From positions 1 to 37,987 of the forward strand of contig NZ_PVWO01000006.1 in the NCBI RefSeq assembly GCF_003003845.1: a stretch of 37,987 nt of DNA. Direction: 5' to 3'. Made by a program: the position numbers and the translations under genes. The stretch is from Chamaesiphon polymorphus CCALA 037. Lineage in GTDB: Bacteria; Cyanobacteriota; Cyanobacteriia; Cyanobacteriales; Chamaesiphonaceae. This document shows, piece after piece, positions 20,591 through 34,480 of this stretch. The notes under the pieces were generated by a model. It was given only the letters and a program-made list of their open reading frames with translations. It was not told the DNA's origin and made no database searches. How positions within the stretch are numbered: position 1 is the stretch's first letter; each line of letters starts with the position of its first letter.

Positions 20591-20668
20591 TGGGAAGTTG
20601 GGAGTTGGGAGTTGGGAGTTGGGAGTTGGGAGTTGGGAGTTGGGAGTTAGGAGTTGGGAGTTAGGAGT
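20591..20668. repeat. STRR heptamer array (TGGGAGT)
   Basis: From 20599 there are ten consecutive 7-bp units: eight TGGGAGT and two TAGGAGT, preceded by one degenerate unit. In the sense of the response regulator gene this is an ACTCCCA array starting about 30 bp upstream of its ATG. The same heptamer occurs at 26142-26188 and inside the element at 32815-32914. Confidence 0.93.
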
Positions 20669-26109: not shown

Positions 26110-26188
26110 CCCGAAACACCCGAAACACCCGAAACACCCGACTCCCAACTCTCACCTCCCAACTCCCAACTCCCAACTCCCAACTCCC
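26110..26188. repeat. Compound tandem array: CCCGAAACA nonamers then CTCCCAA heptamers
   Basis: Three full 9-bp units CCCGAAACA (26110-26136) and a partial one are followed by about six CTCCCAA heptamers, one of them degenerate, ending near 26188. The heptamer is the same as in the arrays at 20591-20668 and 32843-32885. Confidence 0.88.
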
Positions 26189-26286
26189 GACACGATAGTA
26201 CCTTTACTTATACTGAAGACTGCTGGCTCGATCGACTCACTTGGATATAATGCTATTAATGAGCCATTCGCCACTGTTACCGACCC

Positions 26287-30709: not shown

Positions 30710-31432
30710 TTAATTTAAAACTCTAACTTTTTTAATCAGATTGGGAAATTGCTGGCGCAGTTGTGCGAGCTTCGGTAGATCGAATCTTACGACATAGGCT
30801 TGAGTAGGATTGCGATCGATGAAATTCTGATGGTAATCTTCTGCCGCATAGAACTTAGTCAACGGCACTACTTTAGTTGCAATTAGCTTGGGGAAAACAC
30901 GAGATCGATCGAGTCGATCTATATAAGCTTTCGCTACTTTTTGTTGATCGGAATTAGCAAAAAAGATCGCCGATCGATATTGAGTACCAATGTCTGGTTC
31001 TTGACGATTTACCTGCGTCGGATCGTGAGCGATTAAAAAGTAAACTTTTAGGAGTTTTCCGAGAGAAATTTTCTGAGGATCGTAGGTGATTTTGACAGCT
31101 TCTGCATGATCTGTTCTGCCACGACTGACCGCATCATAGTTAGCAGTTTTCGCAGTTCCGCCAGAGTACCCAGAAACAACATTAGAAACACCTGTGAGCT
31201 TCTCAAATACTGCTTCTACACCCCAAAAACAGCCCCCAGCTAAGACGATCGTTTGTTCGCCTTTGGCTCTATGTTCGGGAATATCGACTGGTGGATCGAT
31301 TTTCATACCTGCTGCCAATGTGGGAGTAGAATCAGCAGGAGGGCTAGACAAAATCGTGTGTGGAACGCTACAAGCAACTGCGATTAGTGACACGATCGAG
31401 AGGCTAAATAAAAAGCGATATTTGTTTGACAT
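30710..31432 (-). CDS. msrA: Peptide methionine-(S)-sulfoxide reductase, exported form
   Basis: This 240-residue MsrA repairs oxidised methionine (S epimer). The catalytic cysteine is C68 in GGCFWGVEAVFEKL, and the downstream segments GRTDHAEAVKITYDP, IGTQYRSAIFF and AEDYHQNF are all present. Unlike cytosolic MsrA, it has a 20-residue hydrophobic start and a lipobox-like AVAC (C21), so it is probably a membrane-anchored periplasmic lipoprotein. It lies 90 bp upstream of nothing else on its strand except the MsrP-like gene that precedes it, suggesting joint work on envelope proteins. The recycling thiol could come from the thioredoxin-fold/CcdA pair at 33047-34332. Confidence 0.94.
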   Translation of the reverse strand: MSNKYRFLFSLSIVSLIAVACSVPHTILSSPPADSTPTLAAGMKIDPPVDIPEHRAKGEQTIVLAGGCFWGVEAVFEKLTGVSNVVSGYSGGTAKTANYDAVSRGRTDHAEAVKITYDPQKISLGKLLKVYFLIAHDPTQVNRQEPDIGTQYRSAIFFANSDQQKVAKAYIDRLDRSRVFPKLIATKVVPLTKFYAAEDYHQNFIDRNPTQAYVVRFDLPKLAQLRQQFPNLIKKVRVLN

Positions 31433-31522
31433 AGTGGAGAAACGATCGAGTTTAGATGGTATGAATTTAACTTTTAATTGACGGAGAAACGATCGTTGCG
31501 ATCGAGATCTAATTTAGGCTCT

Positions 31523-32242
31523 CTAAATACCCCCAAACCATTCATATCCTTGTTCTTCCCAGTAACCTTTACCGCCCTTGGGAATTTGACTGGTGAAGGT
31601 AACTTTTGTCACCCATTTTGATAGTTTATAACCCAATTTAATCGGCGTAGCTAGACGGAGGGGAGCACCATTATCGTCGGGGAGCGGCTCTCCATTCATT
31701 TGGTAAGCTAACAGGGTTTGCGGGTGGATCGCCGAGGCTAGATCCCAACTTTCGGTATATTTATCTGCCGATTCAAATAAGACATATTTAACACTATCTT
31801 GCGGCTGTACCATTTTGGCGAGATCGCGCAAGCGAACCCCTCCCCACTGGACTATTGCTGCCCAACCTTCGACACAAACGTGTTGCATCACTATTGAGGC
31901 TGGCGGGATTTGTTTTAAGGCTGCTAACTTCAGTTCGATCGGAAATTTTACTTCGCCATCAACAGTTAAGCGATATTTGTCGGGGTCAATTTCGGGAGTA
32001 CCTTCATAACTATTGATTAGTAATGCTTTGGGATCGATCGCACTTTTGGAAAACTCTGGAATGAGCAATTGCTTTTTGATGAGTAGTTCGCCAAATGACT
32101 GATTTAATGGTTCTGATATTTCACCGACTTTAGTAGTCAATTCGCTGCTACAACTGCTTAGTAGATAACCGATGCTTGACATTCCCAGTAGTTGAATAGC
32201 TTGCCGACGAGTGAGATAATTTGGAAGTTTAATGTGATTCAT
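31523..32242 (-). CDS. MsrP/YedY-like molybdopterin-dependent oxidoreductase
   Basis: This 239-residue protein of the sulfite-oxidase fold has an amino-terminal twin-arginine signal (TRRQAIQLLG, R12-R13). A possible lipobox LLSSC (C31) follows. The molybdenum ligand is C123 in QHVCVEGWAAIVQWGG. By analogy with E. coli MsrP/YedY it may reduce methionine sulfoxide in periplasmic proteins, taking electrons from a membrane cytochrome b. That partner would be the interrupted gene just upstream (32313-33022). The start ATG at 32242 is preceded within 5 bp by a heptamer array and has no Shine-Dalgarno sequence. The catalytic domain looks intact. Confidence 0.88.
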   Translation of the reverse strand: MNHIKLPNYLTRRQAIQLLGMSSIGYLLSSCSSELTTKVGEISEPLNQSFGELLIKKQLLIPEFSKSAIDPKALLINSYEGTPEIDPDKYRLTVDGEVKFPIELKLAALKQIPPASIVMQHVCVEGWAAIVQWGGVRLRDLAKMVQPQDSVKYVLFESADKYTESWDLASAIHPQTLLAYQMNGEPLPDDNGAPLRLATPIKLGYKLSKWVTKVTFTSQIPKGGKGYWEEQGYEWFGGI

Positions 32243-32247
32243 TGGAG

Positions 32248-32299
32248 AGTGAATAGTGAATAGTGAATAGTGAATAGTGAATAGTGGATAGTGGATAGT
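32248..32299. repeat. STRR heptamer array (AGTGAAT) abutting a start codon
   Basis: Seven consecutive 7-bp units occur: five AGTGAAT (32248-32282) and two AGTGGAT (32283-32296), then AGT. The array fills most of the 70 bp between the cytochrome b stop and the ATG of the MsrP-like gene. Read in the gene sense it ends 5 bp before the ATG. Confidence 0.93.
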
Positions 32300-32312
32300 T
32301 AAATATAATGTT

Positions 32313-33022
32313 CTAGGGTTGGAACATCGATCGAGTCAATCTCAAACCACCAGCTCTAATGCCCATGATGATATGTACCAAGACAAATAATAGAGAAATT
32401 GGTACAGTCAAAAAATGTACTATGCGTAAAATATCCCAATTTATAAATAGCCCAGCTAGCCAATGTAATTGAGCGGGTTTATACATCGCCAATCCTGAAA
32501 AGATTGCCAGGATTAATACTGGGATAATTCCGGTATATATCAATCGGTGCCAAGAATATGTCCGTCGCTTGGAATTTTGTCCGACTTGTAATGCTTTGAG
32601 ATCTTGTCCAGAAAAAAACTTTCTTTTCCATCGCTGGGTAAGAAAGATATAAATGCCATAAATTAGTAAGGTAAAAGCATATACCCACATTGCTGCAAAG
32701 TGCCAATTTCTTCCCCCAGCCAACCAACCGCCTAAAGTCGCCCATTTCGGAAATGTCCAACCGTCTTTGCCACCAAATACTGGCGTGGCATTGTAGATCT
32801 GCAAGCCACTAGTAGTCTCCGGCATAAATAAACCTACTATTTGGGAAAGTTGGGAGTGAGGAGTTGGGAGTTGGGAGTGAGGATTAAATACTAGCCTTAC
32901 TTATGCCGCTCAGTACTAGTAATCATGATAAATAGACTGATAATAATTAACCCGTGAAGAATTTTAACGAACTGCGTCTGTGGTGGAATGGGTGGAGACT
33001 TTTTTGGTTGTTTATTATTCAT
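32313..33022 (-). pseudogene. Cytochrome b (b561-like) gene split by a 100-bp insertion
   Basis: The 3' part (32825-32313) encodes 170 residues beginning MPETTSGLQIYNATPVFGG. It has three membrane helices and the haem-ligand candidates NWHFAAM, YSWHRL, RIVHFL and FVLVHIIMG. The usual first helix is missing there. It is found upstream: an ATG at 33022 opens 36 codons ending KILHGLIIISLFIMITS, followed by a frame that soon stops. Joining 33022-32915 to 32807-32313 removes 107 bp (100-bp insert plus one 7-bp copy) and gives a continuous 200-residue protein reading ITSGLQIYNA across the joint. The intact protein would be the quinol-linked membrane partner of the MsrP-like enzyme. The gene is 24 bp after the ccdA-like gene. 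Confidence 0.85.
32815..32914. mobile_element. 100-bp mini-element with imperfect TIRs, heptamer core and 7-bp flanking duplication
   Basis: The element is flanked by ACTAGTA at 32808-32814 and again at 32915-32921. Its ends are inverted: 32820-32842 matches the reverse complement of 32886-32908 at 19 of 23 positions. The core contains TGGGAGT-type heptamers like those at 20591-20668. There is no coding capacity, so any movement would need a transposase in trans. It interrupts the cytochrome b reading frame. Confidence 0.8.
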
Positions 33023-33046
33023 AGTAAATATCTCGTTATTCCTTAA

Positions 33047-33739
33047 TCAAAGGGGAAGTTTGGGAAACAAAGGAGCCAACCAAAGTTGCAGTTCCACATC
33101 CCAACCTAATAAAATTGCGATCGCCGTTCCTGCCATTAATATCCCACCAATGCGTTGAAATGCCCCCGTATAAGGTAACAATCGCCGCGAAGAATTCGTG
33201 ATGTGACGACTGCTATAGGCGATCGCCAGCAACGGAATTCCCGCCCCCAAGCCGTAGACAGTCAATAATGCCAGCGCACCCAAAACCTCATGTTTGACGG
33301 CTGCGAAGACTAAAATACTGCCCAATGCTGGCCCCGCGCAGGGTGTCCAGAGGAGTCCCAATTGAGTGCCGATCCAAAATTCGCTCCATAAGCCTGGAGC
33401 CTTGGGTTCCCAAGCTTTACCGAATCGCACATAACTCATCACCCAGTAACTCAACGCAGGAAAGATTGCCAGTACGCCAAGTCCGAATAGTAGCCCCACC
33501 GCCACATTCCGCAACAAATTGGCAAAACCGACAAACCAAGAACTAGCTACCCCCAACAAACTTCCGATCGCCACAAAACCACTAACCAAGCCTAATACCA
33601 GCATCACAGGGCCGAGTCGATGGGATGCAAACGATCGACCCAATACTAATGGGATAACAGGCAAGACGCAAGGCGAGAGAATGGTTAAGAATCCCCCACC
33701 GAGGGCGAAACCGAAGGTGAGGAGCGAGATTTCATTCAT
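33047..33739 (-). CDS. CcdA/DsbD-like thiol:disulfide electron carrier
   Basis: This 230-residue protein has six membrane helices and the paired cysteines of the CcdA/DsbD-beta family: C24 in LSPCVLPVIP and C134 in WTPCAGPALG. It passes electrons from cytosolic thioredoxin across the membrane to a periplasmic acceptor. The acceptor is probably the thioredoxin-fold protein encoded directly upstream; the two genes overlap by 4 bp (ATGA, 33736-33739), a sign of translational coupling. A role in cytochrome c maturation is the classical alternative. The genomic context here points more to supply of reductant for methionine sulfoxide repair. Confidence 0.9.
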   Translation of the reverse strand: MNEISLLTFGFALGGGFLTILSPCVLPVIPLVLGRSFASHRLGPVMLVLGLVSGFVAIGSLLGVASSWFVGFANLLRNVAVGLLFGLGVLAIFPALSYWVMSYVRFGKAWEPKAPGLWSEFWIGTQLGLLWTPCAGPALGSILVFAAVKHEVLGALALLTVYGLGAGIPLLAIAYSSRHITNSSRRLLPYTGAFQRIGGILMAGTAIAILLGWDVELQLWLAPLFPKLPL

Positions 33740-34332
33740 GCCGATTGTCCCAATAATTGCCGAATTTTCGCCTCAGTTTCGGCGTAGGCTCCTTCGCCAA
33801 TATGGTCGTAACGAACGATGCCCTGACGATCGGCTAAAAATAAATGCGGCCAATATTCATTTTTATATGCCTTCCAAGTTTGAAAGTTATTATCTACACC
33901 AACTGGATAGGTAATACCGTATTTAGTCATCGCCCGACGAATATTTTTAACATCGCGCTCGAAGGCAAATTCTGGCGTGTGAATCCCGATCGTTTGTAAG
34001 CCTCGATCGGCATATTTTTTATGCCAACTGGTAATGTAAGGCAATGTTCGTTGACAATTGATACAACCTAGCGTCCAAATTTGAACTAAGACAACTTTGC
34101 CGAGTAAATCTTTGGTCGTTATGAGTGATGCTGAATTCAGCCACTCACTGATGCCTTGAAATTCTGGTAATCGATTTGCGGCTGCGGTAATAGTTTCAGG
34201 TTCAATAATCTTAGATTCAGGCGCAATAATGCGGGATGCAGATGAGAGACTCGCAAAGTTCGCTATTTGCCAGCCGAGTGTGCCTAGTCCTAGATAAGTT
34301 AACAATTTTCGGCGTGGTAATGATAAAGGCAT
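33736..34332 (-). CDS. TAT-exported thioredoxin-fold (TlpA/redoxin-like) protein
   Basis: This 198-residue protein has a redox pair C90-x-x-C93 in WTLGCINCQRTLP. The surrounding thioredoxin fold has KVVLVQIW before it and GIHTPEFAFE, TYPVGVDNNFQTWKAY and HLFLADRQGIVRYDHIGEG after it. The start at 34332 gives MPLSLPRRKLLTYLGLG, a twin-arginine-like signal for export or anchoring; a longer frame to 34452 runs through a repeat and is rejected. It is the first gene of the minus-strand redox set and overlaps the ccdA-like gene by 4 bp. It probably receives electrons from that protein and reduces periplasmic targets. Confidence 0.9.
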   Translation of the reverse strand: MPLSLPRRKLLTYLGLGTLGWQIANFASLSSASRIIAPESKIIEPETITAAANRLPEFQGISEWLNSASLITTKDLLGKVVLVQIWTLGCINCQRTLPYITSWHKKYADRGLQTIGIHTPEFAFERDVKNIRRAMTKYGITYPVGVDNNFQTWKAYKNEYWPHLFLADRQGIVRYDHIGEGAYAETEAKIRQLLGQSA

Positions 34333-34408
34333 AATTTTGTTAATTAATGAATGTTTGCGCCAATCCTTTGATTCAAACAGGCTTCTTATTGCTAGTAATA
34401 TCCTGTCG

Positions 34409-34480
34409 CCCTCTCCCTGCCATCGCCTCCGGCTCTGGCTCCCCTCTCCCAAGCTTGGGAGAGGGGTTGGGGGTGAGGGC
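34409..34480. repeat. Inverted repeat with 26-bp perfect palindrome
   Basis: The core palindrome CCCCTCTCCCAA-GC-TTGGGAGAGGGG is at 34441-34466. It is flanked by further complementary GCCCTCTCC / GGTGAGGGC sequence, giving a longer imperfect stem. This sequence type is widely dispersed in cyanobacteria. It lies between the EamA transporter stop and the thioredoxin-fold gene start. Confidence 0.7.

Follow-up and report, generated by a model that had tools for sequence, protein, structure and literature searches.

In Chamaesiphon polymorphus CCALA 037 a b561-like cytochrome b gene (PF01292) is interrupted right behind its first transmembrane helix, and we put at about nine in ten the probability that the interruption is a MITE of about 105 bp which was mobilised in trans by a transposase of the IS630 family. 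Its target would have been a TA within CTAG, and this TA would have been duplicated on insertion; for this exact target and for the duplication we depend on comparison with other copies of the element. Helix 1 with its invariant histidine would thus be severed from helices 2-4, and this copy of the cytochrome would lose its function. The window, that is, the whole stretch of DNA that was analysed, is contig C533 with 37,987 bases, from a genome of 6.09 Mb in 756 contigs. The housekeeping genes found in it (IF-2, HemD, alanine racemase, LytB and ScpA) suggest a chromosomal contig. In the following, G stands for genomes (G000 is the own genome), C for contigs and L for loci. The element and the two parts of the gene are as follows.

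32313-32825, minus strand: cytochrome b 3' part, 164 native codons with helices 2-4; 170 aa from the element's ATG; Pfam Ni_hydr_CYTB
32808-32842, plus strand: left terminal inverted repeat including flanking bases, 27/35 positions matching the right one
32809-32919, plus strand: MITE plus both flanking CTAG copies, 111 bp; 112/112 bases identical to G000:C51:2081-2192
32848-32883, plus strand: internal G-rich repeats (GGGAGTT/GGGAGTG type), whose number differs between copies
32886-32920, minus strand: right terminal inverted repeat including flanking bases
32897-33022, minus strand: cytochrome b 5' part, 36 native codons with helix 1 and the conserved His23, then 5 element codons and a stop

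The direct repeat ACTAGTA lies at 32808-32814 and 32915-32921 with a spacing of 107 bases, where an earlier note on this DNA had placed it. That note had counted 19 of 23 matches between the inverted ends of the insert; the inverted ends are real, with measured values of 18/23 and 27/35. Among the 827 seven-base direct repeats standing 60-200 bases apart in the window, the ACTAGTA pair has the best inverted ends (18/23; runner-up 16), and the left-end pattern with at most three mismatches has a single match in the window, compared with none in 100 shuffles. When the insert and one ACTAGTA copy are removed, 36 codons (from the ATG at 33022) come in frame with 164 codons and read ITSGLQIYNA at the join, just as had been proposed. 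The joined frame gives 200 residues, runs without stop or frameshift across 200 codons and has four hydrophobic stretches. As assembled, the 5' frame holds 36 native codons and 5 element codons before a stop at 32897-32899 (41 residues), and the 3' frame starts at an ATG within the element at 32823-32825 (170 residues).

If the rule for IS630 is applied, the element itself would span 32812-32916 (105 bp), and the TA at 32810-32811 and 32917-32918 would be the target duplication. That CTAG might be a part of the element, with nothing duplicated, was disfavoured: the in-frame reading needs four bases and the relatives have four there. The earlier note had spoken of a precise scar; no excision is seen, and what is seen corresponds to a target duplication. 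Repeats of the same kind as those inside the element occur elsewhere in the window: a (GGGAGTT)n array at 20592-20652 and a decayed element-like copy bearing GGGAGTT-type heptamers at 26151-26227. There is also an AGTGAAT array at 32248-32300, between the cytochrome b gene and the MsrP-like gene. In the own genome (GGGAGTT)3 with at most one mismatch has 414 matches, overlapping registers counted. Quadruplex formation was studied for G-rich heptamers of Xanthomonas and Nostoc (PMC4692102).

According to the earlier note, homologs carrying the same insert, naturally starting at the MPETTS position or lacking such a first helix would speak against an insertion. Cytochrome b homologs were found at 106 loci; 102 of them span the insertion site (all except L194, L196, L204 and L210), and 95 are distinct as aligned. 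None of the 102 covering loci carries the insert, and a first helix with His23 is aligned in 95/95 distinct homologs. A natural start at MPETTS is rejected, since in the covering homologs the alignment extends further upstream, across helix 1, and none begins there. At L198 there is a two-column gap at the border of the stretch checked. The four named sequences nearest to the broken protein (86-87% identity) come from an uncultured cyanobacterium and from three MAGs of Chamaesiphon.

In six sister orthologs with 81-88% identity, the coding strand reads GGTAGT (5/6) or GGCAGT (1/6) at this place, against ACTAGT in the window; the L132 row is the same G006 gene as L029 and was excluded from the six. 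The uninterrupted site expected in sister strains was therefore seen, but the single ACTAGTA that had been expected with it stands in none of the six orthologs. Because no sister ortholog reads ACTAGT, the CTAG of the ancestral empty site is our deduction. In a BLAST comparison with G006:C3 the window matched in two pieces which overlap by 4 bases at the insertion site. A second empty site was found upstream of another cytochrome b copy, where G006 has a 133-base element (CTAGs included) against a single CAAG in our strain. Its right flank agrees at 19/20 bases and its left flank at 13/15, after which the left flank diverges (14/20); MAFFT placed this left flank differently. Thus both empty sites examined are single 4-base sites, GTAG/GCAG at the first and CAAG at the second, and neither of them is CTAG, so that the support for the CTAG target and the TA duplication comes for the most part from the occupied copies and from the known behaviour of IS630. 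Empty sites other than CTAG are unsurprising at 80-90% identity between species, but with them the duplication of the target is a putative one.

The occupied copies are numerous. The insert has what defines a MITE: a length of about 105 bp, no transposase gene, inverted ends (27/35) and multiple copies. The own genome has 15 exact left ends, the window copy among them, and 53 matches with at most three mismatches, right ends among them; a reversed pattern, used as control, gave 0. BLAST with a 171-base query found at least 60 matches in the own genome, many of them limited to the internal G-rich repeats. A second copy (C51:2081-2192) is identical across 112 bases and has different flanks. With a broader end pattern the family is present in 8 of the 9 genus genomes, the own genome counted, with 68 ends in G006 and 67 in the own genome (controls 0); G007 is the one of the nine in which this pattern found no ends.

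Sixteen BLAST-found copies besides that of the window were read at their flanks. CTAG stands at both sides in 11/11 two-ended copies and, with five partial copies included, at 25/27 ends, the exceptions being CTTG and ATAG; the left end of the C168 copy was read by eye for these counts. Pattern searches that require CTAG do not count as evidence for it. Neighbouring copies that touch each other have one CTAG in common. A left half and a right half of a MITE of this type, at L010 (G000:C223) and L023 (G000:C604), both continue into TGCAGTGTCAA-like ends next to an internal CTAG; read by eye, it looks as if another element split one MITE copy there.

A regular expression gave 25 complete placements at the loci examined (92-167 bp; 18 in the own genome and 7 in sisters), and it overlooks some BLAST-found copies such as that of C753. 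When the flanks were joined across each of the 25, an open frame of at least 150 codons appeared only at the window copy (208), so within this sample it is exceptional for the element to have landed in a long open frame. Three other placements gave joined frames of 85, 93 and 125 codons, and two of the 25 have less than 200 bases on one side. For the identical copy on C51 the empty site was not located, the relatives matching at most to 9 bases before the element. For the C716 copy it was not located either, with five relatives matching to within 6-12 bases of the element; matches of G002 into the C716 element suggest a shared, older insertion. Rfam and tRNA scans of the window gave no matches, the plasmid collection held no record with 80% query coverage, and among the papers listed for Chamaesiphon with MITE or transposase no title or abstract opening was about such an element.

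A transposase that could act on these ends is encoded in the same genome. The element G000:C741:1209-2510 has 1302 bp and carries CTAGTACTGGGCGGCATAAATA at both ends, and the right end of the MITE is CTAGTACTGAGCGGCATAAGTA, so the MITE ends resemble the ends of a transposase-carrying element. Similar-ended full-length elements of 1301-1303 bp are present at G004:C359, G000:C741 and G006:C1:1937282; in the transposase piece the G004 relative (1301 bp) is 91% and the G006 relative (1303 bp) 89% identical to the C741 element. Seven more transposase matches at 77% lie in G006, and around 5/7 of them the two ends were recognised. The C741 element, the one element scanned, has HTH_32 (51.9 bits) in one frame and DDE_3 (81.4 bits) in the other, which is the domain pair of an IS630-family transposase. 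The top NCBIfam match of both frames is transpos_IS630 (65.4 and 91.4 bits), each below the cut-off of 100, which applies to a whole protein while the C741 protein is split over two frames. In both translated elements, G000:C741 and G006:C1:1937282 (L099:542-1743 and L131), the transposase is spread over two frames, and this suggests programmed frameshifting. None of the transposase-carrying elements found is the exact parent of the MITE; they are related to it and have similar ends.

A known cyanobacterial element for comparison is ISY100 of Synechocystis, likewise IS630-type, which is described as having a helix-turn-helix transposase and 24 bp inverted ends, as inserting at TA and as duplicating it (PMC2170065). 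The MITE of the window has no transposase, and its full-length relatives differ from ISY100 in carrying the transposase in two frames. IS630 itself reportedly prefers TA within CTAG, as Tenzen and Ohtsubo are said to have found in 1991.

The insertion sits directly behind helix 1 (residues about 18-36) and parts the histidine of this helix from helices 2-4. Of the histidines, His23 is kept in 95 of the 95 distinct homologs, His72 in 93, His167 in 90 and His181 in 86, the rest being mostly unaligned. The 170-aa fragment still matches PF01292 Ni_hydr_CYTB with 45.2 bits against a cut-off of 30.1. Against the six sister orthologs the 3' half has Ks 0.66-1.16 and Ka 0.07-0.11, and the short 5' half Ks 0.38-0.93 and Ka 0.07-0.16; Ka is smaller than Ks in both halves. 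From the 112 identical sites of the C51 copy, the rule of three would bound the divergence at roughly 3%, which is small beside the Ks of the 3' half. Because the second copy is identical and there are no further lesions, a recent age appears probable. It had been claimed that a non-autonomous element jumped recently into a b561-like gene and left both halves undecayed; this reading is supported, and the word recently fits the data, which carry no date. Two other homologs, one from an Alkalinema MAG (L189) and one from the complete chromosome of Calothrix sp. NIES-3974 (L192), are apparently divided between two frames, and these are either other broken copies or sequencing errors.

It could be thought that the element gave the gene a new start codon and that the cell makes the 170-residue protein with helices 2-4 and uses it as a cytochrome of reduced length. 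The frame does agree with the ATG at 32823-32825, and AGTAGG seven bases upstream resembles a ribosome-binding site. But such a protein would be without the helix-1 histidine found in all 95 distinct homologs. Moreover, in the predicted hairpin of the element RNA a 13-pair stem holds all three AUG bases (z -2.69; 2/200 shuffles fold as well), and promoter-like sites are no more frequent than chance would give (1 vs 0.9 expected), which makes a working short form very improbable. An outward start codon as a kept function of the element was rejected, with ATG in 39/91 distinct ends examined. The histidine cut off with helix 1, the AUG in a predicted stem and the chance-level promoters together make loss of function likely for this cytochrome copy, as judged from sequence.

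There is likewise little to be said for an interruption present in only a part of the population, where the element would come and go as a reversible on/off state. ISY100 is reported to move by cut and paste (PMC2170065) and both halves of the gene are undecayed; however, the one assembly searched has no uninterrupted allele, and excision is nowhere indicated. Still harder to credit is an assembly artefact in which an abundant repeat was misplaced inside an intact gene. The assembly is fragmented, several contigs start with ends of these repeats and an identical copy exists in C51, but the element is flanked by the halves of a single gene, which stand in the right order, and both junctions are unlike those at C51. 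Hardly more credible is a natural split cytochrome, in which the 41-residue piece (helix 1, histidine) and the 170-residue piece (helices 2-4, other histidines) reassemble: both are open frames with starts and stops and the element stands at the end of helix 1, and if this were true the MITE would be a spacer supplying a stop and a new start and the pieces could form a working heme protein.

The genes around the cytochrome are as follows.

30710-31432, minus strand: MsrA (peptide-methionine (S)-S-oxide reductase), next in the cluster
31523-32242, minus strand: MsrP-like molybdopterin enzyme (Oxidored_molyb), full-length in comparison with homologs and 88% identical to the G006 copy
33047-33739, minus strand: CcdA/DsbD_TM-like membrane protein, whose end stands 24 bases before the start of the cytochrome
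33736-34452, minus strand: thioredoxin-like (Redoxin/ResA-type) protein of the same cluster

The gene at 31523-32242 is called only MsrP-like because its best match, PRK05363/MsrP with 98.4 bits, is below the cut-off of 207 of the NCBIfam MsrP equivalog. Neighbours were counted at L140-L193, which are 54 of the 72 named loci; most of the 18 left out are partial matches or come from outside the cyanobacteria. At 48 of these 54 loci (48/51 of those with room) the cytochrome has an MsrP-like gene less than about 500 bases behind it, and at L178, L184 and L192 there is room and the gene is absent. Upstream on the same strand a CcdA match, in some cases partial, is present at 38/54. These counts mean that the linkage of cytochrome and MsrP-like gene, which the earlier note had guessed, is real. 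The region 30710-34452 is a conserved cyanobacterial cluster of thioredoxin-like protein, CcdA, b561-type cytochrome, MsrP-like enzyme and sometimes MsrA; among the titles that literature searches listed none was about it. The orthologous cluster of G006 (L132, L250; G006:C3) is on a contig of 446,651 bases, and here the cluster stands beside housekeeping genes. In G006:C3 the cytochrome is followed first by another gene. That G006 might therefore have lost the MsrP-like partner was rejected, for the MsrP-like gene was found about 660 bases further on, behind this other gene.

The cytochrome b/MsrP-like pair is present three times in the own genome. Two more cytochrome b genes, on C205 (L135; 74%) and on C11 (L136; 59%), are uninterrupted and each is followed by an MsrP-like gene; the C205 pair is also followed by MsrA. 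So the electron supply to the MsrP-like enzymes need not be lost, and the loss is probably buffered at the level of the cell by these two pairs; this weakens the earlier note's proposal that the insertion would cut that supply.

MsrP is a molybdoenzyme for methionine sulfoxide which pairs with a membrane partner, the heme-b protein MsrQ. The cluster described here likewise has an MsrP-like molybdoenzyme beside a predicted heme-b membrane protein; this protein belongs to PF01292, however, and the cluster also includes CcdA and a thioredoxin-like gene. For Limnospira an MsrP without readily identified MsrQ match has been reported (PMC8400943), so that the b561-type cytochrome is a candidate electron donor or partner.

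Disruption of genes by MITEs is already known in cyanobacteria. In Anabaena sp. 90, 147 MITEs were reported, 132 of them intergenic and 15 in disrupted genes; those of Anabaena were called type II, as they do not evidently resemble the ends of IS elements of that genome, whereas related IS630-type elements are present here (PMC3542288). Inactivation of mcy genes by MITEs in Anabaena has been reviewed, and the same source describes the Chunjie MITE of Geobacter uraniireducens, which disrupts one of two phosphate operons and has 37 other copies in intergenic positions (PMC10969869); host, element and gene are all different from those of the window. The present case is therefore a further example of an ordinary mechanism. 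It shows a MITE family, together with related IS630-type elements, which is present in several Chamaesiphon genomes and is able to land in a conserved gene, and it provides a natural interruption of one copy of the conserved cluster of MsrP-like enzyme, b561-type cytochrome, CcdA and thioredoxin-like protein.
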